36,646 nt of DNA from an uncultured delta proteobacterium (lineage in GTDB: Bacteria > Myxococcota_A > Polyangia > Polyangiales > Polyangiaceae), in assembly GCA_903870415.1 (NCBI GenBank), contig CAIQDA010000123.1:1-36646 (forward strand). The letters run 5' to 3'. The notes beneath the pieces are model-generated. The model saw nothing but the letters and a program-made list of their open reading frames with translations, had not been told where the DNA came from and searched no databases. The position numbers were made by a program, and so were the translations under genes. Below are positions 8,087 through 29,153 of the stretch, piece by piece (the first letter of the stretch is position 1; the number at the start of each line of letters is the position of its first letter).

Positions 8087-9583
8087 TCACTCGACCCCTG
8101 GTTGCATGCGCTGACGGGCTGCATCGCACAACGCGGCTTCGCGCCCGGTTCGCCCATCCTCGCAAACGGCTTCAGGCCCGTACGGCTCTCGGGACACTGC
8201 TTTTTCCCTGTCTTTCGCGCCAGCAGAGCCATCGCCTCGCCCTTCGTCGCGACGCGCACGCAAGCGGTACCAAGCACCACGCGGATCGGTCGCCGGAGCC
8301 GCCCCAAAAAGAAGCGCATCGAGAGCCACGTCATCGTGACGCTGATCATGCGCCAGCGCGTGAAGCGTAAACCACCCGCCTTCGCGCTCAACCGATCGCC
8401 GAGCCACATCGCCGACGCGCGCAAGCTCTTTCATCGCGGCTTCCCCGTGCGCACGCTCGACGAGGAGACGCCCAATGCGCATGCGCCGCGGTACGTCGCG
8501 ATCGATTTCAGGAACCGATGGCGTCGCGTTCGACATGGTTTTTCCCTCACGGCGAACCGATGCGAGCCACGCCGCTTGCCAGGTTCCGAAGCTCTTTCCT
8601 GTGGCCTCAAGGAGCACGTCGGACGATCGACTTCCGGCAAGCGCGCGCAAGTACGCGGGCCACCGTTGAGGACCGAGGTCCGAGCGCAGGTACCGCACGA
8701 AGCTCGTCGCAGACGCGAACGCAATGGCTGCCGATCGCGCACTCGGAAGCATCGCAACGCTCGGCCCGAGTTTGTCGAGCGGTAGCAGTTCGCCCTTGGC
8801 ATCGGCCTCGAGAACAAGCGCTTCTGGCGGCGGCTGCTCGTCGAACGGTTCACGCTCTCGCCAGTGCGTTTCCATGTCTTTTGCCACGCCCTCTTGAAGC
8901 CAGAGCGGCGCGTGGTCCGAGGTGACCGCCGTGAGCGCGAGGTGCGCAAGCTCGTGGACGATGGTGTCCCGCCACGGAAATCCGCCCTCGGTTGCGCGGG
9001 GCGAAAGCATCGTCACGCGGCCCCATTTTGCGATCGCAAGAGTGCCCGTCGTGCGCGCCGATTCGTAAGGAAGGCCCGTGGCCTCCGCAAGCGTCTGCTG
9101 ATCGCGAACGAGCACAACGTACGTCGGAGAGGACCATGTGTAGCCGAGCGACTCGCCCGTCACGCGGCGCGCGGCAACAACGGTATCGGCCAGCCATGGA
9201 AGGAGCGCGACATCGCCGCCGTGCTGAAATTGAACGCGCAACGCGCCATCGTCCGTCGTCCGCTCAACGGCACCTTCCGTCGCGTGAAGCAGACCGAACG
9301 CGATGGACCGAAGCTCTCGCCCGTCTTCTGAACCGGCCTCGGCGCCCGCGGCGTCAAGGAGGCTCAGTGCCACTTTCGGCTGTCCGCGATGCACGGCGAT
9401 ACGTGCAATCTGCACCATGATGCGCGGGCCGCTCTTGCCCGCATCGCGAATGACTCGTTCAGCCCCCTGCGTGTCGAGGCGCGCGAGCCACTCATCGACG
9501 ATACCGGGCGCCCGTTGCGCATGACCGAGCGCCGTCGCAAGGAACAGCGACGCGCCAACCTGAAGATTGCGGCGCTTTCTCAT
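8087..9583 (-). CDS. Secreted HExxH zinc metallopeptidase (peptidase MA-like)
   Basis: 498-residue protein with a short basic N-terminus and hydrophobic stretch (MRKRRNLQVGASLFLATALG), read as a signal peptide or anchor. The central part carries TIVHELAHLAL, an HExxH zinc site (H210, E211, H214), followed about 15 residues later by WLQEGVAKDME, where the Glu is the likely third ligand. This arrangement is typical of gluzincin peptidase-MA-like domains. The C-terminal third is Ala/Arg-rich and helical, possibly TPR-like. Its ATG overlaps the stop of the DUF4175 gene (ATGA), so the two are probably translated together. The substrate is unknown; an envelope processing or housekeeping role is an inference from the signal sequence and neighbours. 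Confidence 0.75.
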   Translation of the reverse strand: MRKRRNLQVGASLFLATALGHAQRAPGIVDEWLARLDTQGAERVIRDAGKSGPRIMVQIARIAVHRGQPKVALSLLDAAGAEAGSEDGRELRSIAFGLLHATEGAVERTTDDGALRVQFQHGGDVALLPWLADTVVAARRVTGESLGYTWSSPTYVVLVRDQQTLAEATGLPYESARTTGTLAIAKWGRVTMLSPRATEGGFPWRDTIVHELAHLALTAVTSDHAPLWLQEGVAKDMETHWREREPFDEQPPPEALVLEADAKGELLPLDKLGPSVAMLPSARSAAIAFASATSFVRYLRSDLGPQRWPAYLRALAGSRSSDVLLEATGKSFGTWQAAWLASVRREGKTMSNATPSVPEIDRDVPRRMRIGRLLVERAHGEAAMKELARVGDVARRSVEREGGWFTLHALAHDQRHDDVALDALLFGAAPATDPRGAWYRLRARRDEGRGDGSAGAKDREKAVSREPYGPEAVCEDGRTGREAALCDAARQRMQPGVE

Positions 9584-12279
9584 CGCAAGAGTCCTTCCTC
9601 GTAGCGCTGAACCGCCTCCGGCACCTTCGTGTCACGGCGCCCCGCGAGGCCTTCGATCACGCGACGTCGCCATGCCGCAGCGCGCGCTTCTTCGGTGCGC
9701 GGGACAGCCGCGTGGGCAGCTTCGTCACTGCCTTTCGCGTCTTCCGATTGAAGCGCATCACGGGCCGCGTCGAGACTGTCGAGCGCCACGCCTTGCGCAT
9801 CGACGCCCTCGCGAATCTTGCCCTCTCGAAACGCCTGCGACGCCCGATCCATGGCCTCTGCGCTCTTGTCGAGCGCCTTGCTTACCGCTTCGTCACGAGA
9901 CGTTGGACGAAGCTGTCGCGCGCGATCCGCCAAGCGTTTTTCATCCTCCGCAAGAACCTTCGCGTCACCGTGGAGCTTCTCGTCGAGCCACGTGCCTTCG
10001 TCTTGAATGCGCCCGCGCAAAGCGGCGCGCTCGCGCGATGAGCCCTTCGGCAACGTATGCTCGGCGTCGTTCACGGCTTGGCGCGCACGCGCGAAGTCAC
10101 CACGCCGCACGAGGTCGGCAGCCTTGCGCAATTGGGTCTCGCCCTCCCCATGCCGAAGCTCGTCGGCCGCGCCGAGTGACTGAAGCCGCTTCGCGTGTTC
10201 TTCGCGCTCCTCACGCTCACCGCCCAGCGGCTCGTGCGTGAGACCTTCGCCTGCACGCCGAAGCATTTGCTGTTCGCCCGCGAGCTCATCGACGGCGGAT
10301 CCTTTGGTCGAACCTGCGCCACCCGCATTGGCTTCCGCGTCTGAGCCTTCGCTTCCGGTGCCTTCGGACGAACCTTCACCGCCCATGCCGGCGCGACCAT
10401 CGCCCGTGCCGCCTTTTCCAGAACCGCGCGCACCGAAACTCGGGTCGGGACGCGCTAATCGCCTGGCCAACGCCGCGAGGAGAAACTTTGCCGAACCTGG
10501 CTCCGCCGCCACAAGAGGCTTCACGCGCGCGAGTTCGCCTTCGATGAGATCGCCCAAGTCGCGCCCGAGTGGCCCGAGAACGCGCAGGGTGCGACCCGCG
10601 GCGTCAAGGTGAGCCAGGTCGTCCCCGAGAGTCGCGGGCGCGGTCGGACGAAACGAGTCACTTGCATTCTGCACCTGTTGCCCAATGCGGCGTGCAACGA
10701 CTTTTGCATCCGTCCACGCGAGCTGCCGAAGGGCTCCATCGAGGTCCAGCACCACCTCCTCGGTGGCGGAGAGAACGTCTTTTCGGCCGCTCTCGCTGTC
10801 TCGTCGAGGAAGATTTTCCGCAAGGCTTTGAAGCTTCGAAACGCTTCGTCGCACGGAGCTTCGAACTGGCGGCGGAACGAGGAGGCCAAGCGTCGAAGTG
10901 CCGAGACTTGCGTCGATTTCTTCGCGTTCGTCCTCAAGGTCCACGAGCCATTCGGCCAGCGGGTCGACGCTCGTTGCCGCTGCGGGCACGAGGCGATGCG
11001 CCAGGCGATCCACTTCATGGTCGCGAAGCATGACGAGGGACTTGAAGCGCTCCGCCTCAGCGGTTCCGAGGGCCGGAGGTACGACGACAATGGCTTCGCT
11101 CCGCCCCCAACGAGCGCCTTCACGACCGTCGTCGCGAGCCTCAACACGCAGCTCGACAGGTCCTATGGCCCTGCGAAAGAACGGGTCGGACGTGCGTACG
11201 AAGGACGCTCCACTGTCCGACAGATGAGCTCCGTCCAGGGTCGCGAGCGGACGTCGCTCTTCGAGCGTGCCGCTGCGAAGCACGAGCTGCACCTCGCGAA
11301 GTCCGTGATCGTCTTCGGCGCGGTAGGCGATGGCCACGCCACCGTCACGATCCGTTTCGCTGAGCAAAAGCTGCTTCGGAGCGCCCTTCAGTTCGACGAC
11401 GGGGAGGGCATCTCGTGCGGTTTCGAAGACGACGACCGCGCCATCGGGAATGAAGACACCTGCCACGCGACGACCGAGGCGCCAGGTTTCACTTTCGCGA
11501 ACGGACCTTTGTGCGAGCACCGATCCCTGGCCGTCGCTCGTGAGCGGAAGCACAGCGTCGCCACACACCGCAACGAACGCCACAGCGGGCCGTACAACGC
11601 GCGCACGAGCCTCAACGTCGCTGCCCGCGTGGATGATGACCGTGCCCTCGAACGGCGCCGTTGCGTCGACCACGCGCAGGTAGGCTGGCGCACGGACAAC
11701 CACTTGGGCTCCGCGCAGCGATGCGAGTGAAAATCGCGCTTCGCTCCCGCGCGCCGTGAGCACCGCAACGCCCTCGGCGACCGCGTGAAATTGGAAAACG
11801 ACGACGGCAACCATTGCGGCCACAACCACGCGAGCGGTCACGAGCAAGCGACGATGAGCCTGCGCAACGCCTGCGTCGAACGCGGACCAATCGACCCGCG
11901 CATCGAGGCGCTCAAGATGCAACGCCGCGAGCTCTGGCGACTCACCGTGAAGGCTGCCGCGGTCGGCCATCACCTCCGCGCGCGCAAGGCTCTCGCGCAC
12001 CTCGAGCGGCAGGTTGTTGCGCGCCAAGCGTGCGGCAAACGTCAGCGCAAGGGCTCGACATTGCGGAATGCGCCTCACCGCCACGAGGAGCGCAAACGGC
12101 ACGAGGGCTAGCGGAACGAGGGCCCGCGCGGCTGTCACCCCAGGCTCCGAGCGCGCAAGCATCGTCACGCACGCAAGCGCAAGGAGCGTTGCCCTCCACG
12201 TCAGCGCCTCCACCGCGGGCTGCATCGGCGCAAACCAACGTTCGGCGTAGCGGCTTCGACGCGGCGGAAGTGGGTTCAC
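9580..12279 (-). CDS. DUF4175-like multi-domain membrane protein
   Basis: 899-residue protein. Two hydrophobic segments lie near the N-terminus (about residues 28-66) and a third at about 150-170, followed by a large extracytoplasmic beta-rich region that includes YRAEDDHGLREVQLVLR, a hallmark of DUF4175-like proteins. The C-terminal part holds a long helical region, a Gly/Ser-rich linker (GSGKGGTGDGRAG and on) and Glu/Arg-rich coiled coil to the end. This matches the layout of the DUF4175/TIGR02302 low-complexity family, which has no assigned function. The start is a GTG at 12279 with no Shine-Dalgarno; ATG at 12225 is an alternative. It is the first gene of the minus-strand run and is divergent from plsB across a 220-bp gap. 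Confidence 0.75.
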   Translation of the reverse strand: MNPLPPRRSRYAERWFAPMQPAVEALTWRATLLALACVTMLARSEPGVTAARALVPLALVPFALLVAVRRIPQCRALALTFAARLARNNLPLEVRESLARAEVMADRGSLHGESPELAALHLERLDARVDWSAFDAGVAQAHRRLLVTARVVVAAMVAVVVFQFHAVAEGVAVLTARGSEARFSLASLRGAQVVVRAPAYLRVVDATAPFEGTVIIHAGSDVEARARVVRPAVAFVAVCGDAVLPLTSDGQGSVLAQRSVRESETWRLGRRVAGVFIPDGAVVVFETARDALPVVELKGAPKQLLLSETDRDGGVAIAYRAEDDHGLREVQLVLRSGTLEERRPLATLDGAHLSDSGASFVRTSDPFFRRAIGPVELRVEARDDGREGARWGRSEAIVVVPPALGTAEAERFKSLVMLRDHEVDRLAHRLVPAAATSVDPLAEWLVDLEDEREEIDASLGTSTLGLLVPPPVRSSVRRSVSKLQSLAENLPRRDSESGRKDVLSATEEVVLDLDGALRQLAWTDAKVVARRIGQQVQNASDSFRPTAPATLGDDLAHLDAAGRTLRVLGPLGRDLGDLIEGELARVKPLVAAEPGSAKFLLAALARRLARPDPSFGARGSGKGGTGDGRAGMGGEGSSEGTGSEGSDAEANAGGAGSTKGSAVDELAGEQQMLRRAGEGLTHEPLGGEREEREEHAKRLQSLGAADELRHGEGETQLRKAADLVRRGDFARARQAVNDAEHTLPKGSSRERAALRGRIQDEGTWLDEKLHGDAKVLAEDEKRLADRARQLRPTSRDEAVSKALDKSAEAMDRASQAFREGKIREGVDAQGVALDSLDAARDALQSEDAKGSDEAAHAAVPRTEEARAAAWRRRVIEGLAGRRDTKVPEAVQRYEEGLLR

Positions 12280-19967: not shown

Positions 19968-20032
19968 CCGTGAACGAAGACGGTCCAAGTCCGGCGCTCG
20001 CTGTCTTTTTCCACACGCTTTCGCGTTCACGG
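19968..20032. repeat. Imperfect inverted repeat upstream of guaB
   Basis: CCGTGAACG (19968-19976) and CGTTCACGG (20024-20032) are exact reverse complements separated by 47 bp, in the gap between the peroxidase stop and the guaB start; the second arm overlaps the last codons of the peroxidase gene. The flanks also nearly match (GCG before the left arm, GGCGC after the right). It could be a bipartite operator, part of a long-loop terminator, or chance in GC-rich DNA. Confidence 0.3.
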
Positions 20033-21880
20033 TGGCGCGAGCGAATCGACAGAGTCGCCCTTGAGCACCTTGAGGAACGGCACGAGGGAGTCACGCAAGC
20101 CCGTGTCGAACTCGGGCACCCACGCGTCGACGGTCCCAACGGCCTTCGCGTCGGAGTCCTTCAAGCCGCGCTCGCTGTAGTGCTTTGCCACGTCTTCGAT
20201 CGTCGCAAGCGTCCCGCCATGGCCGAACTGCCCGCGACTCGCAATTCCGCGAAGGGTCGGTGTCTTGAACGCGCCAAGCAAGCGATCGCGATCCGCTGGA
20301 AGCGCGAGCGCCATGGGCGAGTCTGACCAAACGCCTGCACCGTTGAACTCGGAACCTTCGAGCAACGCGAAGGCATCGATGCGTCCCCGATCGGCCAAGC
20401 CGTCTTGCCGTCCCGTGGGAAAACGCAGGACATGGTACGCGTCATCGGTGAGTCGAGGTCCCGCGTGGCATTGGGTGCATCCTGCATGAAGGAAGCCCGC
20501 GAGGCCCTTGCGCTCGGGGTCTGTGAGCGCGGTCACGTCTCCGCGGGCGTAGCGGTCGAGGGCGTTTTCGCGCACGCGAAGAGTCCTCTCATACGCCGCA
20601 ATAGACTTTCCGATGTTCACGAAAATGCCCGTGACCGTGCGCTTTTCATCGGTCGCGAGCGCGTCCCACGCCACCGTGCCAGGCATCGCGTTCACGAGGC
20701 GCGCGTCGGTTGAAAGCGCGGGCATCGTTCCGAAGACGGCTTCGTAAGCCGCGCGGTAACTTGCCGCGACACGCCCAACCACCGTGCCGCGAGATGAGCC
20801 CATTTCTTTGGCATTTTCCAAGGGCCCAAGCGCCTGCATCCAGAGTGAGTCGGCGCGGCCATCCCAAAATTGCGCATGCTTGTAGGATGCAAGTGCCACG
20901 TTGGGCGCATGCCGATCGACCTTCGCGAGTCCGAGCGACTGGGGGCGATCGTCACCAAAGTTCTTTTCGGGCGCGTGGCAGCTCGCACACGACACAGCTC
21001 CGTTTGACGAGAAGGTTTCGTCGAAGAACAGCCTCCGCCCAAGCTCGGCCGCCTGCGGCGATGTTGCAACGCGATTCGACGGCTCGTCGACGGGCTCGCC
21101 ATGCCACGCCATGCCCTCGATCACGGCCCACTCGGACTCGTCGAAAAGACCGTCGTGGAGCGCCGGTGGCACGAACGATGACCAGGGATTTGGCTTCTTA
21201 TACCGCGCAAAGAGCGCTCCCAAACGTTGCGGATACTCCTGCCAGCCCCACCCGTGGCCGAGGCCGACGACATGCATCGATCGCTTCTCGACGATGACCG
21301 TATACGGCATATGGTTCGGGGCTGTATCGAGCGCAAACCAGCGGCGCTCCGCCGTCGAGGCCACCACGTCCGCATCGGAGTGGACGCGCCACGCGGCAAG
21401 ATCGGCGGCGGTCGGCACTTGCTGCTCCGCGTTCGCAAGCAGGACGTCAATGACCTCCACACTCCCTGCGGGCTCGAGGCCTCGCCACTTGCTCGTGCTC
21501 GCCGCGGCGATTCTGCACGGCTCGCACCAGGTCGCACCGATGCGCAAGACGAGGAATTTTGGCTCCGTTCGGCATGGGAGGTAGCGCTCGTGAAGCGTGA
21601 AGTCCGCTCTTGCGCTGTCCGCCGCGAGCGCGGTGAACGCCACGTCGGGCAACGCCGCGTCGATGGAGAACGTTCCCACGTCGGGCGGGTGCGTGCGGGT
21701 CGAGTCGCATGCGGGCACTGCCGCATCGGCGGACACTGGGTCAAGATGCGTGGACGAACACGCTGGGGCTCCAGCGGCAATCGCGGCGAGAAGCGCGAGC
21801 GTCGACGCGAAGACCCCGTTCGCACTTGCTGCACGAGCTGCACGAGCTGCGCGATCGCCTCGAACGCCAAAGAACGTCAT
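20027..21880 (-). CDS. Thioredoxin-like / dihaem cytochrome c peroxidase (MauG) fusion lipoprotein
   Basis: 617-residue exported fusion. N-terminal: Arg-rich start, hydrophobic stretch and APACSS, a plausible lipidation site. Domain 1 (about residues 85-235) is thioredoxin/TlpA-like with ATWCEPC (C119, C122) and a cis-Pro site NHMPYTVIV. Domain 2 (about 265-605) is a bacterial dihaem peroxidase with two CxxCH sites, CASCH (C298-H302) and CTQCH (C468-H472), and the family block KTPTLRGIASRGQFGHGGT. At the usual axial-Met position (YMHDG) this protein reads FGHGG by eye, so haem ligation may be MauG-like or unusual. ATG at 21880 is chosen over the track start at 21973, which adds 31 Arg-rich residues. 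Reaction and electron donor are not known; peroxide reduction coupled to thiol-disulfide exchange is an inference. Confidence 0.83.
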   Translation of the reverse strand: MTFFGVRGDRAARAARAASANGVFASTLALLAAIAAGAPACSSTHLDPVSADAAVPACDSTRTHPPDVGTFSIDAALPDVAFTALAADSARADFTLHERYLPCRTEPKFLVLRIGATWCEPCRIAAASTSKWRGLEPAGSVEVIDVLLANAEQQVPTAADLAAWRVHSDADVVASTAERRWFALDTAPNHMPYTVIVEKRSMHVVGLGHGWGWQEYPQRLGALFARYKKPNPWSSFVPPALHDGLFDESEWAVIEGMAWHGEPVDEPSNRVATSPQAAELGRRLFFDETFSSNGAVSCASCHAPEKNFGDDRPQSLGLAKVDRHAPNVALASYKHAQFWDGRADSLWMQALGPLENAKEMGSSRGTVVGRVAASYRAAYEAVFGTMPALSTDARLVNAMPGTVAWDALATDEKRTVTGIFVNIGKSIAAYERTLRVRENALDRYARGDVTALTDPERKGLAGFLHAGCTQCHAGPRLTDDAYHVLRFPTGRQDGLADRGRIDAFALLEGSEFNGAGVWSDSPMALALPADRDRLLGAFKTPTLRGIASRGQFGHGGTLATIEDVAKHYSERGLKDSDAKAVGTVDAWVPEFDTGLRDSLVPFLKVLKGDSVDSLAPP

Positions 21881-22425: not shown

Positions 22426-25400
22426 ATGGAACGCATCTCGCGGAGTTTGGACAAGCTGCCCGCGTTGAACATGCGGCCGCCTGCGTCCGGTCGTCGTCGG
22501 TCCAGCCCGGCGGCACGACGTGGCTTCGCCCATACGCTATTTGCATTCTGCATCTTCTCGATGCTGTCCGTCTTCGCAAAGCCCGCTCATGCGGAAGCCC
22601 GCCTCGTCCTCGCAGACGGCTTTGCTGAGCGATCGCTCGGAAGCGTTCTTGAGCTCGCGCACGACCCGTCGGACTCCCTCACGTTCGACGCGGTGCGCTC
22701 CGGGGCCCTCGCCTTCGCTCCAAGCACCCAAGACATTCCGAACTTCGGGTACCGCGGAGGGGCCGAATGGGCACGACTGACCTTGGACGATCGCCGCCGC
22801 GACAAGGAGCCGCTCGTCCTCGACCTCTCGTACGCGATCACCGATCGCCTCGAAGTTTTCATCGAACGCAATGGAGAGGTGGCCTCGTTCATCGCCGGCG
22901 ATCACACCGATCACCGCGCATGGCCAATCGACGCGCGTTTGCCCTCGTTTCCCATGGGTTCCGGCTCGGCGAACGTATGGATTCGATTGAGTGGCGGCGC
23001 CTCGCACCAGCTCCCGCTTACGCTTCGAACCCGCGAGGCATGGCACGACGCCACAGCCCGCGAGAACATCGCCCAGGCTATCTACTACGGCGCCCTTGGG
23101 GCGATGTTGTTGTACAATGCACTCGTTTGGGCGGCGGTCGGCCTGCGGCTCTACGGGGCGTACGTGGCCTTCCTCGGCTCCTATGGACTCTTTTCCCTGA
23201 GCCTGAACGGCATCATCTTCGCTCGCGTATGGCCATGGGCTACGTCTCTTAATGATCACATCTTGGTACCGGCTCTTTGCGGTATAGGTGCGTTCGGTTT
23301 CTACTTCACGTTGGCGCTTCTCGACCTTGGGCCGTTTCGAGCCGCCGCGAAGACCGCTGAACGCGCGATCGCTTGGTCCGCGCTGGTGTTTGCAACGGGT
23401 TCGCTCTTCGTCCCCTACGCAACAGCGATTCGCGTCGTCTTGGCATTTATCGCTGTTTGGAGCGCGCTCCTCATCGCGTGCGGCGTCGTGGCGGCAAGGC
23501 GCGGCGAGGCGCTGGGGCGTTTGTACCTCGTGGCTTGGAGCGCGTTCATCGTGGGCGTGGTCATCAACGTGTTGCGCGTCCTCGGCTACATTCCGACCAA
23601 CGCGGTGACCGTGAACGCGCACCAGGTCGGCTCCGCCATTGAGTTTTTGCTGTTGTCGTTCGCCCTGGCCGACCGCATCAAGCGCCTGCAAGCGGAGGCC
23701 ACGCACCACGCGGAGCTTGCCGCGATCCATGCGCGCGCAGCACAAGCCGCCGCCGACCATGCGCTCGCGGAAGAGAGACGCCTCGGCGAAGAACGCGATC
23801 AGTTCGTCGCCAACACGTCGCACGAACTGCGAACGCCGCTCAACGGCATGCTCGGGCTCGTCGAAGCGGTGCGGATTCGTGAGGGACTTACGCTTTCGGA
23901 TGCGTCGCGGCGAAGCCTTGCGGCGGTCTCGTCGTCTGGACAACGGCTCGCGTCCCTGGTTGGTGATCTGCTGGATTTTTCTTCAGCACAGCGCGGAACG
24001 ATCGCCCTTCGACGATCGCCGACGAGCATCGAAACGCAAGCGAGCTTCGTTGCCGATCTCTTGAGGTCGACTCTCGAAGGCCGCCCCGTTGAGCTCGTGG
24101 TCGACATGCCGCCGGCGTTGCCCGCAGCCGACGTAGACCCGCATCGCCTTCAGCAGATTTTGTTCAACATCGTCGGCAACGCGATCAAGTTCACGGAAAA
24201 GGGCTCGATACGCATCGGTGCCCAAGCTCACGACGGCACGATCACGGTGCGCGTTCGCGACACGGGAACCGGCATTCCCGACGACGCCCAAAGTCGGATT
24301 TTTGAGGCCTTTCAGCAGGCAGATGGCGGCATCGCACGACGCTTCGGTGGCACGGGGCTTGGGCTGGCGATCACCAAGCAGCTCGTCGAGGCCCACGGGG
24401 GCGAGGTCGGTGTTTCGTCCACGCCAGGCTTCGGCTCGACCTTTTGGTTCACCCTGCCCGCGAGCGCCGAGATCGCTTCAGCGAGTGACGACGGAATCGT
24501 CTCGTCCGCGATTGGCTCGAAGGCTCAAGCCCTTCGCGCGCAACTCGAAGCCGCTGGGGCAGCGCGAGGAACTTCGAGCGTGGGGTCGATCACCAGCGCG
24601 GCGCCGGTCGAAGCCGACGTAAAAAGTGCTGAAAAGCGTCTCACCGTTCTCGTCGCCGATGACGAAGCGGTGAACCGGCAAGTGCTCACTGAGCTTCTTT
24701 CCCTCGGCGGGTACCATGTGCAAATTGCAACCAATGGTCGCGAGGCCGTCGAGTCGGTTCGGCGCTCGAAACCTGACGTGGTGCTTCTTGACGTGATGAT
24801 GCCGGAACTAAGCGGCTACGACGCGCTCTCGCAACTGCGCACCGACTACGACGAGCTCGCGCTGCCCGTGTTGCTTCTAACGGCAAAAGCCCAGGCGAAG
24901 GACTTGGTCGAAGGCTTCCGTCGCGGCGCCACCGACTACATCGTGAAACCGTTTTCGGGCGCGGAGGTACTTGCGCGCATCCAGCACCAAGCCCGCCTTC
25001 TGGTCGCACTCGCGCGCGCCACCGAGCTTCGCCACGAGGGAGACGCGCTGCGAGAGACCCTCGGCCATGCGGAAGAGCAGCTTCTGCACAGCGAGCGCCT
25101 CGCAAGCATCGGGGCAGCAACCGGCGGCATCGCGCATGATCTCTGCAACCCAATCCACCACATTCTAACGGCGCTCGAGAGCATCGGCGAGCACGCGGAG
25201 AAGGTCGAGAACGCGTCGCGCGAAATGGCGGAGATTCACGAAGACGTGCTCGCGATTGCAGACTGGGCGACCGTTGGTACCACGAGCGGCCGAAACGCTC
25301 TCGCCATCGCCGATACGATTCGGGCGGCGATGCGCAGCGACAATGGCACACCGGAGCTCGTCGTCCTCGATGAGGTCGTCGACGACGCGCTTCTGATTCT

Positions 25401-25800
25401 CACGCACAAACTCAAGCCCTTCGACGTCGTTCGCGTCCGTGCAAACGGAGCCTTGATCGAAGCGCGGCGCACCGAAGCGCTCCAGGTCGTGATGAACCTC
25501 ATCGCAAACGCCGCCGACGCGCTCGAGGAAGCGAAAACGTCTCGCATGAGCGTGCGACTCACAATGACCGGCGAACGGGTCGACCTCTTCGTGGAGGACA
25601 ACGGACTCGGTGTGCCCGATGCGCTTCGATCGCGAATCCTTCAGCCGTTCTTCACGACGAAGCCGAGAGGAAAAGGCACCGGGCTTGGGCTCGCAACGGT
25701 CGCCACCATCGCCGGACACTGGGGTGCAGAGCTGTCGATCGGCCGCAGCGAGAGCCTCGGCGGAGCGGCGTTTCGCGTTTCGATGACGAGGGCGACCTAG
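22426..25800 (+). CDS. 7TMR-DISM hybrid histidine kinase with receiver and second kinase module
   Basis: 1124 residues. Order: signal sequence (HTLFAFCIFSMLSVFAKPAHA), periplasmic 7TMR-DISM extracellular domain (about 60-200), seven-helix 7TMR-DISM region (about 210-420), coiled coil, HisKA with NTSHELRTPLNG (phospho-His about 466), HATPase (NIVGNAIKF, DTGTGIPDD, GGTGLGLAI), receiver (VADDEAVN, VVLLDVMMPE with Asp about 790, conserved Lys in YIVKPF), then a second kinase unit with GGIAHDLCNPIHH (about 902), N box LIANAADAL, DNGLGVPD and GKGTGLGLAT. All phosphorelay residues look intact, so two ATP-binding cores flank one receiver. 7TMR-DISM modules are thought to bind small or carbohydrate ligands; the ligand here is unknown. 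Its TAG overlaps the next gene's GTG by one base. A weak ribosome site precedes ATG 22426; ATG at residue 16 is an alternative. Confidence 0.9.
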   Translation: MERISRSLDKLPALNMRPPASGRRRSSPAARRGFAHTLFAFCIFSMLSVFAKPAHAEARLVLADGFAERSLGSVLELAHDPSDSLTFDAVRSGALAFAPSTQDIPNFGYRGGAEWARLTLDDRRRDKEPLVLDLSYAITDRLEVFIERNGEVASFIAGDHTDHRAWPIDARLPSFPMGSGSANVWIRLSGGASHQLPLTLRTREAWHDATARENIAQAIYYGALGAMLLYNALVWAAVGLRLYGAYVAFLGSYGLFSLSLNGIIFARVWPWATSLNDHILVPALCGIGAFGFYFTLALLDLGPFRAAAKTAERAIAWSALVFATGSLFVPYATAIRVVLAFIAVWSALLIACGVVAARRGEALGRLYLVAWSAFIVGVVINVLRVLGYIPTNAVTVNAHQVGSAIEFLLLSFALADRIKRLQAEATHHAELAAIHARAAQAAADHALAEERRLGEERDQFVANTSHELRTPLNGMLGLVEAVRIREGLTLSDASRRSLAAVSSSGQRLASLVGDLLDFSSAQRGTIALRRSPTSIETQASFVADLLRSTLEGRPVELVVDMPPALPAADVDPHRLQQILFNIVGNAIKFTEKGSIRIGAQAHDGTITVRVRDTGTGIPDDAQSRIFEAFQQADGGIARRFGGTGLGLAITKQLVEAHGGEVGVSSTPGFGSTFWFTLPASAEIASASDDGIVSSAIGSKAQALRAQLEAAGAARGTSSVGSITSAAPVEADVKSAEKRLTVLVADDEAVNRQVLTELLSLGGYHVQIATNGREAVESVRRSKPDVVLLDVMMPELSGYDALSQLRTDYDELALPVLLLTAKAQAKDLVEGFRRGATDYIVKPFSGAEVLARIQHQARLLVALARATELRHEGDALRETLGHAEEQLLHSERLASIGAATGGIAHDLCNPIHHILTALESIGEHAEKVENASREMAEIHEDVLAIADWATVGTTSGRNALAIADTIRAAMRSDNGTPELVVLDEVVDDALLILTHKLKPFDVVRVRANGALIEARRTEALQVVMNLIANAADALEEAKTSRMSVRLTMTGERVDLFVEDNGLGVPDALRSRILQPFFTTKPRGKGTGLGLATVATIAGHWGAELSIGRSESLGGAAFRVSMTRAT
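22600..23690 (+). repeat. Tandem-duplicated sensor module, copy 1
   Basis: DNA and protein of this stretch (DISM domain plus seven-helix region) match the stretch at about 25857-26955 in the next gene. Near-identical patches include GCCCAGGCTATCTA (23071 and 26337) and the exact 17-mer CAGGTCGGCTCCGCCAT (23623 and 26889). The copies are in the same orientation, about 3.26 kb apart, and each belongs to a separate kinase gene. Confidence 0.75.
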
Positions 25801-28800
25801 TGTTTTTCTTCAGGCTTTTATTGATTGTTCTCTTCGGCGCGTCCGCGGCACAGGCCCGTGACCTCGTGATTGACGAAGGCTTCTCGAGCGCGTCGCTCGG
25901 CCGCCGCATCGAGGTTGGCTACGACCCGACTCTAGCCTTGAGCCTCGACGACGTGCGGAGCGGAGCGCTGGCTTTCGCCGCGACGACCGAAGACGTGCCG
26001 TCCTTCGGCTACCGATCGGGTGCCGAGTGGGTTCGATTCACCCTCGACGACAGGCGGGGCGCCAAACGTGACCCGCTCGTGCTCGAACTCGCCCATCCCG
26101 TCACCGACGTGGCCGAGGTGATCACCGAAACTGCTGAAGGTCGCCGCGTCACGATGCGCGCAGGCGATCACGTCGACCACCGCACGTGGCCCCTCGACGC
26201 GCGCGTTCCCTCGTTTCCCATCGAACCGGATGTCGTGAACGTGTGGATGCGCGTCACGGGTCGATCGTCGCACCAGCTCCCGCTCACGCTGCGCACGCGA
26301 GAAGCGTGGCACTTGCACACCGTTCGCGAAGACGTTGCCCAGGCTATCTATTACGGCGCCCTCGGCGCTATGCTCATATACAATATCCTCGTATGGGCTG
26401 CGGTCGGGCTGCGCCTTTATGGCTTTTACGTCTGGTTCTTGGCTTGTTATGGGTTTCTTTCGCTCGTTCTGAACGGCGTGTTCTTTGCGGAGTTCGCGCC
26501 GGGCGCGGTCGGGTGGACAGACCGCCTCACGATTCCGCTTATGGCGGGACTCTCGTTTGGCGCGTTGGGCTTCACGCTCGGACTTCTCGACTTCGGTCGA
26601 CGCAGGCCTTTGGCGTTGCGCATCGCCTTCGCGCTTTCGGCACTGTTCGGCACGCTGATGTGCATTTCTCCTGCCATTCCGTATTCGGTTGGAATCCGCC
26701 TCGCCATCGTCCTCGACGCAACGCTTGCGATCCTACTGGTGGTGGCCGGAGTGTTCGCCACCGTGCGCGGAGAGCGACCGGGACGCTGGTTCGTCACGGC
26801 GTGGAGCGCGTTTCTCACCGGCGCCCTCGTCTATGTCCTGCGTGCGGCAGGGGTCGTTCCGAGCAACGCCTTCACAGCGAACGCCCATCAGGTCGGCTCC
26901 GCCATCGAGTTCTTGCTTCTGTCGTTTGCCCTCGCCGACCGGATCAAGCAGCTCCAAGCGCAGGCCACGGCGAACGCCGAACTGGCCGCAGCGAGCGCCG
27001 AACTCGCCCGCGTCGCGTCGGTTCATGCGCTCGAGGAAGAGGCCAAGGCAAACCAAGAGCTTCGTCGTCTCGACGCACTGAAAGACGAGTTTCTCGCCAA
27101 CGCCTCCCACGAGCTGCGAACGCCACTCAACGGCATCATCGGCATGGCGGAGGCGCTCGATGAGAGCCGCGAATTGCCCGCGTCACTGCGCGCGCGCTCC
27201 GTGGATATTCTCAGTGCGGCACGACGACTTTCGGCGCTTGTCTCCACCATCATCGACTTCGGCGCAAACCATTCGGACGAGCTCGCTCCGGCCCTCGTGC
27301 CAACCGACCTTGCCGCGCTCGTTTCGCGCGCGCTCGATGAATCCCGTCGCGATCACGCGAGCAAGAACCTTCGGGTTGTCACCGACTTTCCGCCCGAGGC
27401 CTCGACGGTTCTTGCGGAGGAACATGCGCTCATCGAAACCCTTCGAGCGCTCATCGGAAACGCGTTCAAGTTCACCGCGTTCGGCTCCATCGAGGTGCGT
27501 GCTCGGCGCGCAGGCGACGTCGTCGAAGTCGTGGTCATCGACGAGGGAATCGGCATCGACCCCGCGCGCCTTCCGTCCATCTTTCGGCCCTTCGAGCAAG
27601 GCGATGGGAGTTCCACGCGTCTTCATGGCGGCACCGGACTCGGCCTTGCGCTCGCAAAAAAATTCGTCGAGGCGCTCCGCGGAACCATCGCGATTGATTC
27701 GCAACCTCGCGTCGGAACGACCGTCACGCTTCGACTCGTGGCCTCCGACGAGGCGAGCGTGCCGCAAACGCCTCCCCCTGGCCCTGCGCAGCCTTTTCCA
27801 ACGTTTGACGATCCGCTGTCGGTCGCGGAGGTCGAACCGGCGCCTCTCAGCGTCGCCGTCGTCGATTCGCTTCGTCCCGTTTCGATCTCGAGTTCGCGCC
27901 CAAAGTCATTGCCTCCAGCTCCTGCCGGCGCGGCGAAGACCCGACGTGCACGCGTGCTTGTGGTCGACGATGATCCCCTCAATCGTCGCGTCGTGGCCGC
28001 ACACCTTCGGACAGCTCCCTTCGACCTCGTCGATGCGGTCGACGGCCCCGATGCCCTCGACGCGTTCGCCAACCGCGGCCCCTTCGATGCAGTGCTTCTC
28101 GACGTGATGATGCCCGGCATGAACGGGTACGAGGTGTGTCGCCGCATGCGCGAGTTTGCGAGTGCGACCGACGTGCCCATCCTGATGCTCACGGCGAAAC
28201 AACAAGTGGGCGATCTCATCGAGGGCTTCGAAGCCGGCGCGAACGACTACGTGCACAAGCCCATCGGCCGCGGAGAACTGCGCGCACGCCTCTCGACGCA
28301 CGTGAGCTTGGCGAGAGCGTCACTCGCGATGAGGCGCTTCGTTCCCCGCGAAACCATTCGCCTTTTGGGCTTCGATGACTTGACGGATGTGAGCCTCGGC
28401 GATGCCGCAGAACACGAACTCACGGTGGCCTTCAGCGACGTGCGCGGCTTCACGGCGGCTGTCGAGCGAATGACACCGAAGGGAGCCTTCGAGTGGCTCA
28501 ATCGTTGTTACGGCGTCATCGGGCCCGAGGTTCGTCGCAACGGCGGCTTCATCGACAAGTACATCGGCGATGCGGTGATGGCTCTATTTCCGCGCACGCC
28601 CGCGGACGCGGTGCGGGCCGCCATCGCGATGCAACGTGGCATGGATGCCCTCGGCGACATTCACCTCGGCACGGGCATTCATGTGGGCTCGACGATGCTC
28701 GGAACCTTGGGCGAAGCAGAACGATTCGAGGCCACGGTGCTCGCCGATACCGTGAACGTCGCAAGCCGCGTGGAGGGCGCGAGCAAGTTCTTCGGCACCC

Positions 28801-29153
28801 GCGTTCTCGTGACGGACGATGTTCGCAATCAATCCGAAAGCGAGGGATTCTCCTGGCGTTCGCTCGGCTCGATTCGACTGAAAGGGCGAAGCGCTCCCGT
28901 GAACTTGCACGAACTTCTCGATGCGGACACGGCTCCGGAGCGTGACCGCAAACTCGCGCTCCTCCCGGACTTCGCGGAGGGCCTCGCCGCGTTCCGCGCG
29001 GGCCGCCTGCGTGAAGCCGCCGCACGCTTTCGGCGCATCGTGGACGAGAACCCGAACGACGGCCCGGCACAGGCCTGCCTCGCGCAAGCCACGAGGCTCA
29101 TCGACACGAAGGACGCTTCGTTCGACGGAACGTTCGTCCTCGCGGACAAGTAG
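25800..29153 (+). CDS. 7TMR-DISM hybrid histidine kinase fused to receiver and class III adenylate cyclase
   Basis: 1117 residues, paralogous to the preceding gene in its sensor. Order: signal sequence (FFRLLLIVLFGASAAQA), DISM extracellular domain, seven-helix region, coiled coil, HisKA NASHELRTPLNG (about H437), HATPase (LIGNAFKF, DEGIGIDP, GGTGLGLAL), Pro/Ser-rich linker, receiver (VVDDDPLN, VLLDVMMPGMNG with Asp about 767, KPIGRGE), then a cyclase domain (about 870-1030) and a TPR-like tail. The cyclase has both metal Asp (FSDVRGFT, KYIGDAVMALF), the adenine-selecting Lys and Thr (FIDKYIG, FEATVLAD) and the transition-state Asn and Arg (TVNVASR), so it should make cAMP and fits class IIIb. 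GTG at 25800 overlaps the upstream TAG by one base, with GAGGG ahead of it. Confidence 0.9.
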   Translation: MFFFRLLLIVLFGASAAQARDLVIDEGFSSASLGRRIEVGYDPTLALSLDDVRSGALAFAATTEDVPSFGYRSGAEWVRFTLDDRRGAKRDPLVLELAHPVTDVAEVITETAEGRRVTMRAGDHVDHRTWPLDARVPSFPIEPDVVNVWMRVTGRSSHQLPLTLRTREAWHLHTVREDVAQAIYYGALGAMLIYNILVWAAVGLRLYGFYVWFLACYGFLSLVLNGVFFAEFAPGAVGWTDRLTIPLMAGLSFGALGFTLGLLDFGRRRPLALRIAFALSALFGTLMCISPAIPYSVGIRLAIVLDATLAILLVVAGVFATVRGERPGRWFVTAWSAFLTGALVYVLRAAGVVPSNAFTANAHQVGSAIEFLLLSFALADRIKQLQAQATANAELAAASAELARVASVHALEEEAKANQELRRLDALKDEFLANASHELRTPLNGIIGMAEALDESRELPASLRARSVDILSAARRLSALVSTIIDFGANHSDELAPALVPTDLAALVSRALDESRRDHASKNLRVVTDFPPEASTVLAEEHALIETLRALIGNAFKFTAFGSIEVRARRAGDVVEVVVIDEGIGIDPARLPSIFRPFEQGDGSSTRLHGGTGLGLALAKKFVEALRGTIAIDSQPRVGTTVTLRLVASDEASVPQTPPPGPAQPFPTFDDPLSVAEVEPAPLSVAVVDSLRPVSISSSRPKSLPPAPAGAAKTRRARVLVVDDDPLNRRVVAAHLRTAPFDLVDAVDGPDALDAFANRGPFDAVLLDVMMPGMNGYEVCRRMREFASATDVPILMLTAKQQVGDLIEGFEAGANDYVHKPIGRGELRARLSTHVSLARASLAMRRFVPRETIRLLGFDDLTDVSLGDAAEHELTVAFSDVRGFTAAVERMTPKGAFEWLNRCYGVIGPEVRRNGGFIDKYIGDAVMALFPRTPADAVRAAIAMQRGMDALGDIHLGTGIHVGSTMLGTLGEAERFEATVLADTVNVASRVEGASKFFGTRVLVTDDVRNQSESEGFSWRSLGSIRLKGRSAPVNLHELLDADTAPERDRKLALLPDFAEGLAAFRAGRLREAAARFRRIVDENPNDGPAQACLAQATRLIDTKDASFDGTFVLADK
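25857..26955 (+). repeat. Tandem-duplicated sensor module, copy 2
   Basis: Second copy of the duplicated sensor. Shared protein blocks include RSGAEW/RGGAEW, SHQLPLTLRTREAWH, AQAIYYGALGAML and VGSAIEFLLLSFALADRIK. Divergence is greatest in the extracellular loops and lowest in the last helix and its junction with the kinase coiled coil. Confidence 0.75.

Follow-up and report, generated by a model that had tools for sequence, protein, structure and literature searches.

The window, a 36,646-nucleotide stretch of DNA from an uncultured member of the Polyangiaceae, encodes on its minus strand (20027-21880) a 617-aa protein, P0001, in which a thioredoxin-fold domain is joined to a MauG-type dihaem domain. 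It is one of 58 homologous single-frame fusions, its own included. We propose, at a probability of about 0.42, that P0001 is a MauG-type oxidase that acts in protein maturation and has a thioredoxin-fold partner module fused to it. The domain architecture, its conservation, the residues at key positions, the grouping of the fusions in trees and the gene contexts were established directly and are described below.

The gene is a single ORF of 617 codons, with its ATG at 21880, within a stop-free frame of 691 codons; all features of the protein given here lie on the minus strand. A WCEPC motif and two CxxCH sites occupy this one open frame, as stated in the original prediction of a thioredoxin-fold/MauG fusion. 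The protein begins with a signal peptide and a lipobox cysteine, C41 (21758..21880), and residues 10-36 form a helix in the structural model. C41 is present in 22/22 rows of the alignment, and the lipobox is of a plain form in most of these 22 homologues, the window's own APAC being weak. The assignment as a lipoprotein therefore held, and the fusion product is a predicted exported, periplasm-facing lipoprotein. The full-length model of the fusion has a pLDDT of 81.4 and a pTM of 0.80.

The dihaem domain (residues ∼271-605; 20066..21070) belongs to the CCP_MauG superfamily: Pfam CCP_MauG (PF03150) matched residues 276-449 with 133.1 bits against a curated cut-off of 25.6 (E = 1.6e-38), two CxxCH sites are present at 298 and 468, and PDB searches returned dihaem CCP and MauG structures. 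The first haem c site, CASCH 298-302 (20975..20989), lies on the peroxidatic side and the second, CTQCH 468-472 (20465..20479), on the six-coordinate side; H302 and H472 are each found in 58/58 fusions, and the full CxxCH was shown for 39 at both sites. W339 (20864..20866), which corresponds through the CCP alignment to the inter-haem Trp of CCP and MauG, is conserved in 57/58. The pocket residues Q349 (20834..20836; 56/58), equivalent to MauG Q103, and E359 (20804..20806; 58/58), equivalent to the catalytic E113 of MauG, are separated by 10 residues, as in MauG.

The axial ligand position of the second haem was located from H554 (20219..20221), a histidine in a GHGG stretch that is invariant in 58/58, as the residue 14 positions further on. 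In the window protein this is Y568 (20177..20179), and 54 of the 58 fusions have Tyr here, the other four having His; canonical CCPs have Met here and MauG has Tyr. Applied to controls, the same H554+14 rule returned Tyr for mau-operon MauG, MbnH and MTO-associated MauG, and Met for the genome's own canonical CCP (L001). The axial Met had been suspected of being altered, and Tyr568 indeed stands where the genome's own CCP has Met, the change being of the MauG type. By this residue the domain would be classed as MauG-type rather than as a canonical CCP, and we infer a Tyr-His ligated six-coordinate haem and a peroxidatic pocket lined by Gln and Glu. The four axial-His fusions (L084, L097, L126 and L130; His read directly in the first three) form one clade, each with an NHL-type propeller gene upstream, and in L084 and L097 the pocket Gln is missing as well. 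This clade resembles, in nature, the Y294H mutant of MauG. In the BthA report, both MauG Y294H and BthA Y463H are described as losing the bis-Fe(IV) near-infrared feature (PMC6405878).

Pfam detected no thioredoxin family in the single window sequence, and profile and fold searches were needed to recognize the N-terminal domain (residues ∼70-240; 21161..21673). A 39-sequence profile of the domain gave thioredoxin-family lipoproteins and TlpA as its best solved matches in the PDB (E ∼2e-5 to 5e-5), and a model of the domain (pLDDT 86.9, pTM 0.84) matched the folds of ResA, Etrx2 and DsbE/TlpA (best E ∼1e-7). The fold, the WCEPC active-site motif (residues 118-122; 21515..21529) and P192 at the thioredoxin cis-Pro position (21305..21307; invariant in 58/58) place it among TlpA/ResA-like thioredoxin folds. 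We also considered and rejected SCO1 as the identity of this domain. None of 39 members gave a Pfam SCO1 match, the cysteine spacing is WCxxC and not the CxxxC metal site of the SCO1/SenC family (PF02630), and the hhalign probability was 2%, far below the 98.8% at which the fused domain aligned with a set of TlpA and redoxin lipoproteins from myxobacteria. A conserved cluster of DUF6029, TlpA and redoxin lipoprotein genes lies near nine fusions (loci including L067, L068, L083, L096, L106, L111, L114 and L118), and its redoxins have a 'D-RTM' stretch after the cis-Pro in common with the fused domain. The fused domain may derive from the redoxin lipoproteins of this cluster; the proximity of the cluster to the fusions may be simple synteny.

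Both cysteines of the WCxxC motif are present in 43/58 fusions and neither in 15/58, where WSGPS and similar sequences take its place. Loss of a single Cys was never seen, and two changes on the tree suffice to account for the pattern of presence and absence. All 15 CxxC-less fusions retain both haem His, Glu359 and cis-Pro192. The CxxC is dispensable within the order, and the retention of both haem sites where it is missing argues against its being generally needed to attach the haems or to pass electrons to them. Two mechanisms offered in the original prediction, self-assisted haem attachment and direct electron passing via the CxxC, are thus not generally supported. A third, peroxide-dependent thiol oxidation, is possible for the CxxC-bearing branches, the window's among them, and does not apply to the CxxC-less fusions. 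A further pair, C58 (21707..21709) and C103 (21572..21574), was either complete or entirely missing in the homologues read, and C103 is kept in 53/58 fusions, including CxxC-less ones. This co-occurrence suggests that C58 and C103 probably pair in a structural disulfide that is independent of the CxxC.

Among the 58 full-length single-frame fusions in the fetched loci, 57 belong to the window's order; the remaining one, L084 (G192), comes from a different family in the same class. The genomes analysed are mostly MAGs, and the 284 sampled over the phylum contained no fusion outside the class, only MauG-only relatives. A plasmid search returned matches to the MauG part, with no record in which one place covered 80% of the query. 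Of the relatives with a name, the closest is a MAG that carries the label Polyangium aurulentum (72% identity in the best segment), which was also the only match in a scan of genome contigs with one protein as query. Its copy has a frame change near residue 285 and retains the WCEPC and both CxxCH sites, and the dN/dS values against it, 0.21 in the thioredoxin domain and 0.14 in the MauG domain, indicate purifying selection on both. Pairwise distances in the two domains are correlated (r = 0.73; 0/999 permutations as high), from which it follows that the domains travel together. In two trees, quick ones with SH-aLRT support only, the fusions fall on one side of a branch (support 91 and 36); the simplest reading is one fusion event. 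Judged by these sequences, the fusion is old and conserved within one bacterial order.

The possibility that the fusion is an artefact, produced by a frameshift or by the joining of two genes in assembly, draws on frame changes that interrupt the P. aurulentum copy and two further MAG copies. The split points lie away from the domain junction, however, and 58 uninterrupted fusions from dozens of genomes rule out such a join, leaving an artefact a practically negligible chance. The companion worry of the original prediction, that homologues might always be separate, fails as well, since many relatives align across both domains in one frame. Three fusion copies split by frame changes were seen in MAGs, at L135 (G002), L085 (G013) and L086 (G030), and may reflect either sequencing errors or real losses.

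In the window, the gene is followed on the same strand by one for IMP dehydrogenase and is preceded by a divergent hybrid histidine kinase gene; no propeller, YtkA, SCO1 or cox gene adjoins it. Two hybrid histidine kinases abut each other at 22426-29153; both have 7TMR-DISM sensor domains, and the second has a guanylate cyclase domain as well. An 899-residue ORF on the minus strand (9580-12279) has no Pfam match. Elsewhere, 16/58 fusions have a beta-propeller lipoprotein gene immediately upstream in the same orientation; these fusions are spread over three clades and all have the CxxC. Neighbouring genes were predicted by a simple GC-frame method. Related loci have contexts in common, so these and the following counts are not independent events. 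The propellers are of the BNR/YCF48 type in nine loci and of the NHL/SGL type in seven. Their families differ from clade to clade, and none of their residues stands out as a specific substrate. The BNR-type propellers (L117, L127, L125, L081, L101, L129, L072, L131 and L100) have three invariant Cys besides the lipobox Cys, which are possible targets of thiol chemistry.

Relatives without the thioredoxin fusion adjoin YtkA in 20/29 loci (at L093 the two are fused), with CtaG in 10, COX3 in 9, SURF1 in 8 and SCO1 in 7. In the Myxococcota, unfused MauG-type genes are found in cytochrome oxidase assembly operons composed of COX3, CtaG, YtkA and MauG, several with SCO1 and SURF1 (L140, L141, L142, L145, L147, L148, L151, L156, L157 and L158); we found no paper on this context in the open-access literature. 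A second fused-partner arrangement, in which a YtkA-like domain is fused N-terminal to a MauG-type domain, occurs at L093:4774-6495 (+). Four CxxC-less fusions lie ∼1.4 to 2.2 kb from cox genes, with SCO1 further on in three, and four fusions lie within ∼5 kb of heavy-metal RND pump genes.

We favor the maturation-oxidase reading because both haem sites are conserved in 58 single-frame fusions, because the axial residue is Tyr as in MauG, MbnH and MTO-associated MauG and not Met as in the genome's own CCP, and because both domains are co-inherited and under purifying selection. The genomic context adds to this: unfused relatives adjoin YtkA together with CtaG, SURF1 and SCO1, four fusions lie beside cox genes (three with SCO1), and the propeller lipoprotein gene upstream in three clades has an analogue in SCO1-MauG and methanethiol oxidase. 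In such an enzyme, the dihaem centre would take oxidising equivalents from H2O2 and apply them to a partner protein during its maturation, and the fused domain would serve as a built-in partner or docking module, replacing the separate YtkA or SCO1 partners of unfused relatives. In the CxxC-bearing branches, including the window's, it would probably also carry out dithiol-disulfide exchange on the partner. The haem ligation, the chemistry, the partner or client, the use of H2O2 and the direction of electron flow in this scheme are drawn from family knowledge and context. Against it stand the window gene, which has none of the propeller, YtkA, SCO1 or cox neighbours, the propeller families, which differ by clade, and the four axial-His fusions, given the effect of the corresponding substitutions in MauG and BthA.

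A plainer possibility is that the dihaem part reduces H2O2 at the cell envelope and that the thioredoxin fold is a docking or structural appendage, its CxxC being a relic in some lineages. Such a peroxidase is consistent with the loss of the CxxC in 15/58 fusions that keep the peroxidatic Glu, and with the statement, in the BthA report, that BthA Y463H still reduced H2O2 with an external donor (PMC6405878). We nevertheless think it unlikely, as an axial Tyr in place of Met resembles the protein-modifying branch, the CxxC is kept in 43/58 with cysteines lost only pairwise, and propeller neighbours recur. The operons in which CtaG, YtkA, MauG, SCO1 and SURF1 occur together, the cox and RND pump genes near four fusions each, and the TlpA-like fold would also suit a copper-site assembly factor. 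Here the thioredoxin domain, like TlpA, would reduce the Cys of SCO1 or those of a CuA-type site, and the MauG part would supply or remove oxidising equivalents in the assembly of cytochrome oxidase or another cuproprotein. However, the cox-adjacent fusions are exactly the CxxC-less ones, and most fusions, the window's included, lie away from cox genes, so that this role is unlikely.

If the haems instead oxidised the CxxC dithiol, which would in turn oxidise substrate Cys, the protein would be a peroxide-driven disulfide generator. The CxxC of the window protein and its P. aurulentum relative and the three invariant Cys of the BNR propellers fit this scheme, but it is inapplicable to the 15 Cys-less fusions and we regard it as improbable. 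Very improbable is that the thioredoxin domain keeps the Cys of the protein's own CxxCH sites reduced during cytochrome c maturation. The fold matches ResA, a reductase of apocytochrome CxxCH, yet the 15 CxxC-less fusions keep both haem sites, and the domain is missing from unfused relatives and from ordinary CCPs. The fused domain is thus more likely to act as a built-in partner module in a protein-maturation enzyme than to assist the attachment of the protein's own haems. Within protein maturation, we also entertain, as a rather unlikely case, a two-step enzyme of a new class, in which the thioredoxin domain would reduce or dock the client (the propeller lipoprotein in several clades) and the dihaem centre would oxidise the same client to yield a new protein-derived cofactor or cross-link.

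To our knowledge, a function is known for few MauG-type enzymes, and for most members of the superfamily no substrate is known. The conserved thioredoxin fusion, the recurrent propeller neighbours and the unfused relatives in oxidase-assembly operons point to specific candidate clients and bring the question of the substrate within reach of testing, for which the natural CxxC-less and axial-His variants are ready-made controls.

Compared with known systems, the window protein has in common with MauG of methylamine utilisation the dihaem CCP_MauG fold, the axial Tyr, the Gln/Glu pocket and the inter-haem Trp. It differs in carrying a thioredoxin domain, no mau genes or mau cluster are present among the annotated genes of the window, and the equivalog for TTQ biosynthesis (TIGR03791) scored 135.5 bits against a cut-off of 443.85. 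MbnH likewise has a Tyr-ligated dihaem centre and modifies a partner protein, and an MbnH-type model matches the window protein (E = 2e-27). However, the MbnH family model (TIGR04039) gave 96.2 bits against a cut-off of 362.85, the neighbours are IMP dehydrogenase and a histidine kinase and not MbnP, and the gene that groups with MbnH is L002, a paralogue in the same genome, rather than the window gene. TlpA and ResA have the fold and WCxxC motif in common with the window domain but are separate proteins, whereas the window domain is fused and has the extra conserved C58-C103 pair. BthA of Burkholderia is a dihaem enzyme that resembles MauG but is divergent. It has Tyr-His ligation and a disulfide near the six-coordinate haem, no substrate is known for it, and the accessible part of its report describes no thioredoxin-fold domain (PMC6405878); its sequence match to the window protein is weak (E = 1.3e-5).

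The nearest published analogue is SCO1-MauG, a fusion or gene pair that adjoins mtoX, the gene for a beta-propeller methanethiol oxidase, and has been proposed to act in the maturation of that enzyme (PMC5739008, PMC6548844). The original prediction, in holding that thiol-disulfide and haem peroxidase chemistry normally reside on separate proteins, overlooked these published fusions; besides them, we found no Redoxin/thioredoxin-MauG fusion in the open-access literature. The SCO1-MauG of mto clusters (Methylophaga thiooxydans) resembles the window family in combining a thioredoxin-fold, chaperone-type domain with a MauG-type dihaem domain in one exported protein that has a propeller neighbour. 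Its first domain is SCO1, whereas that of the window family is TlpA/ResA-like, with WCxxC or no Cys, and the window gene has no mtoX/SBP56 neighbour. In Ruegeria, SCO1 and MauG are a gene pair beside mtoX, and this MTO-associated MauG groups outside the fusion clade. The thioredoxin-MauG fusion looks like a parallel solution, in which a MauG-type oxidase has been joined to a thioredoxin-fold partner.
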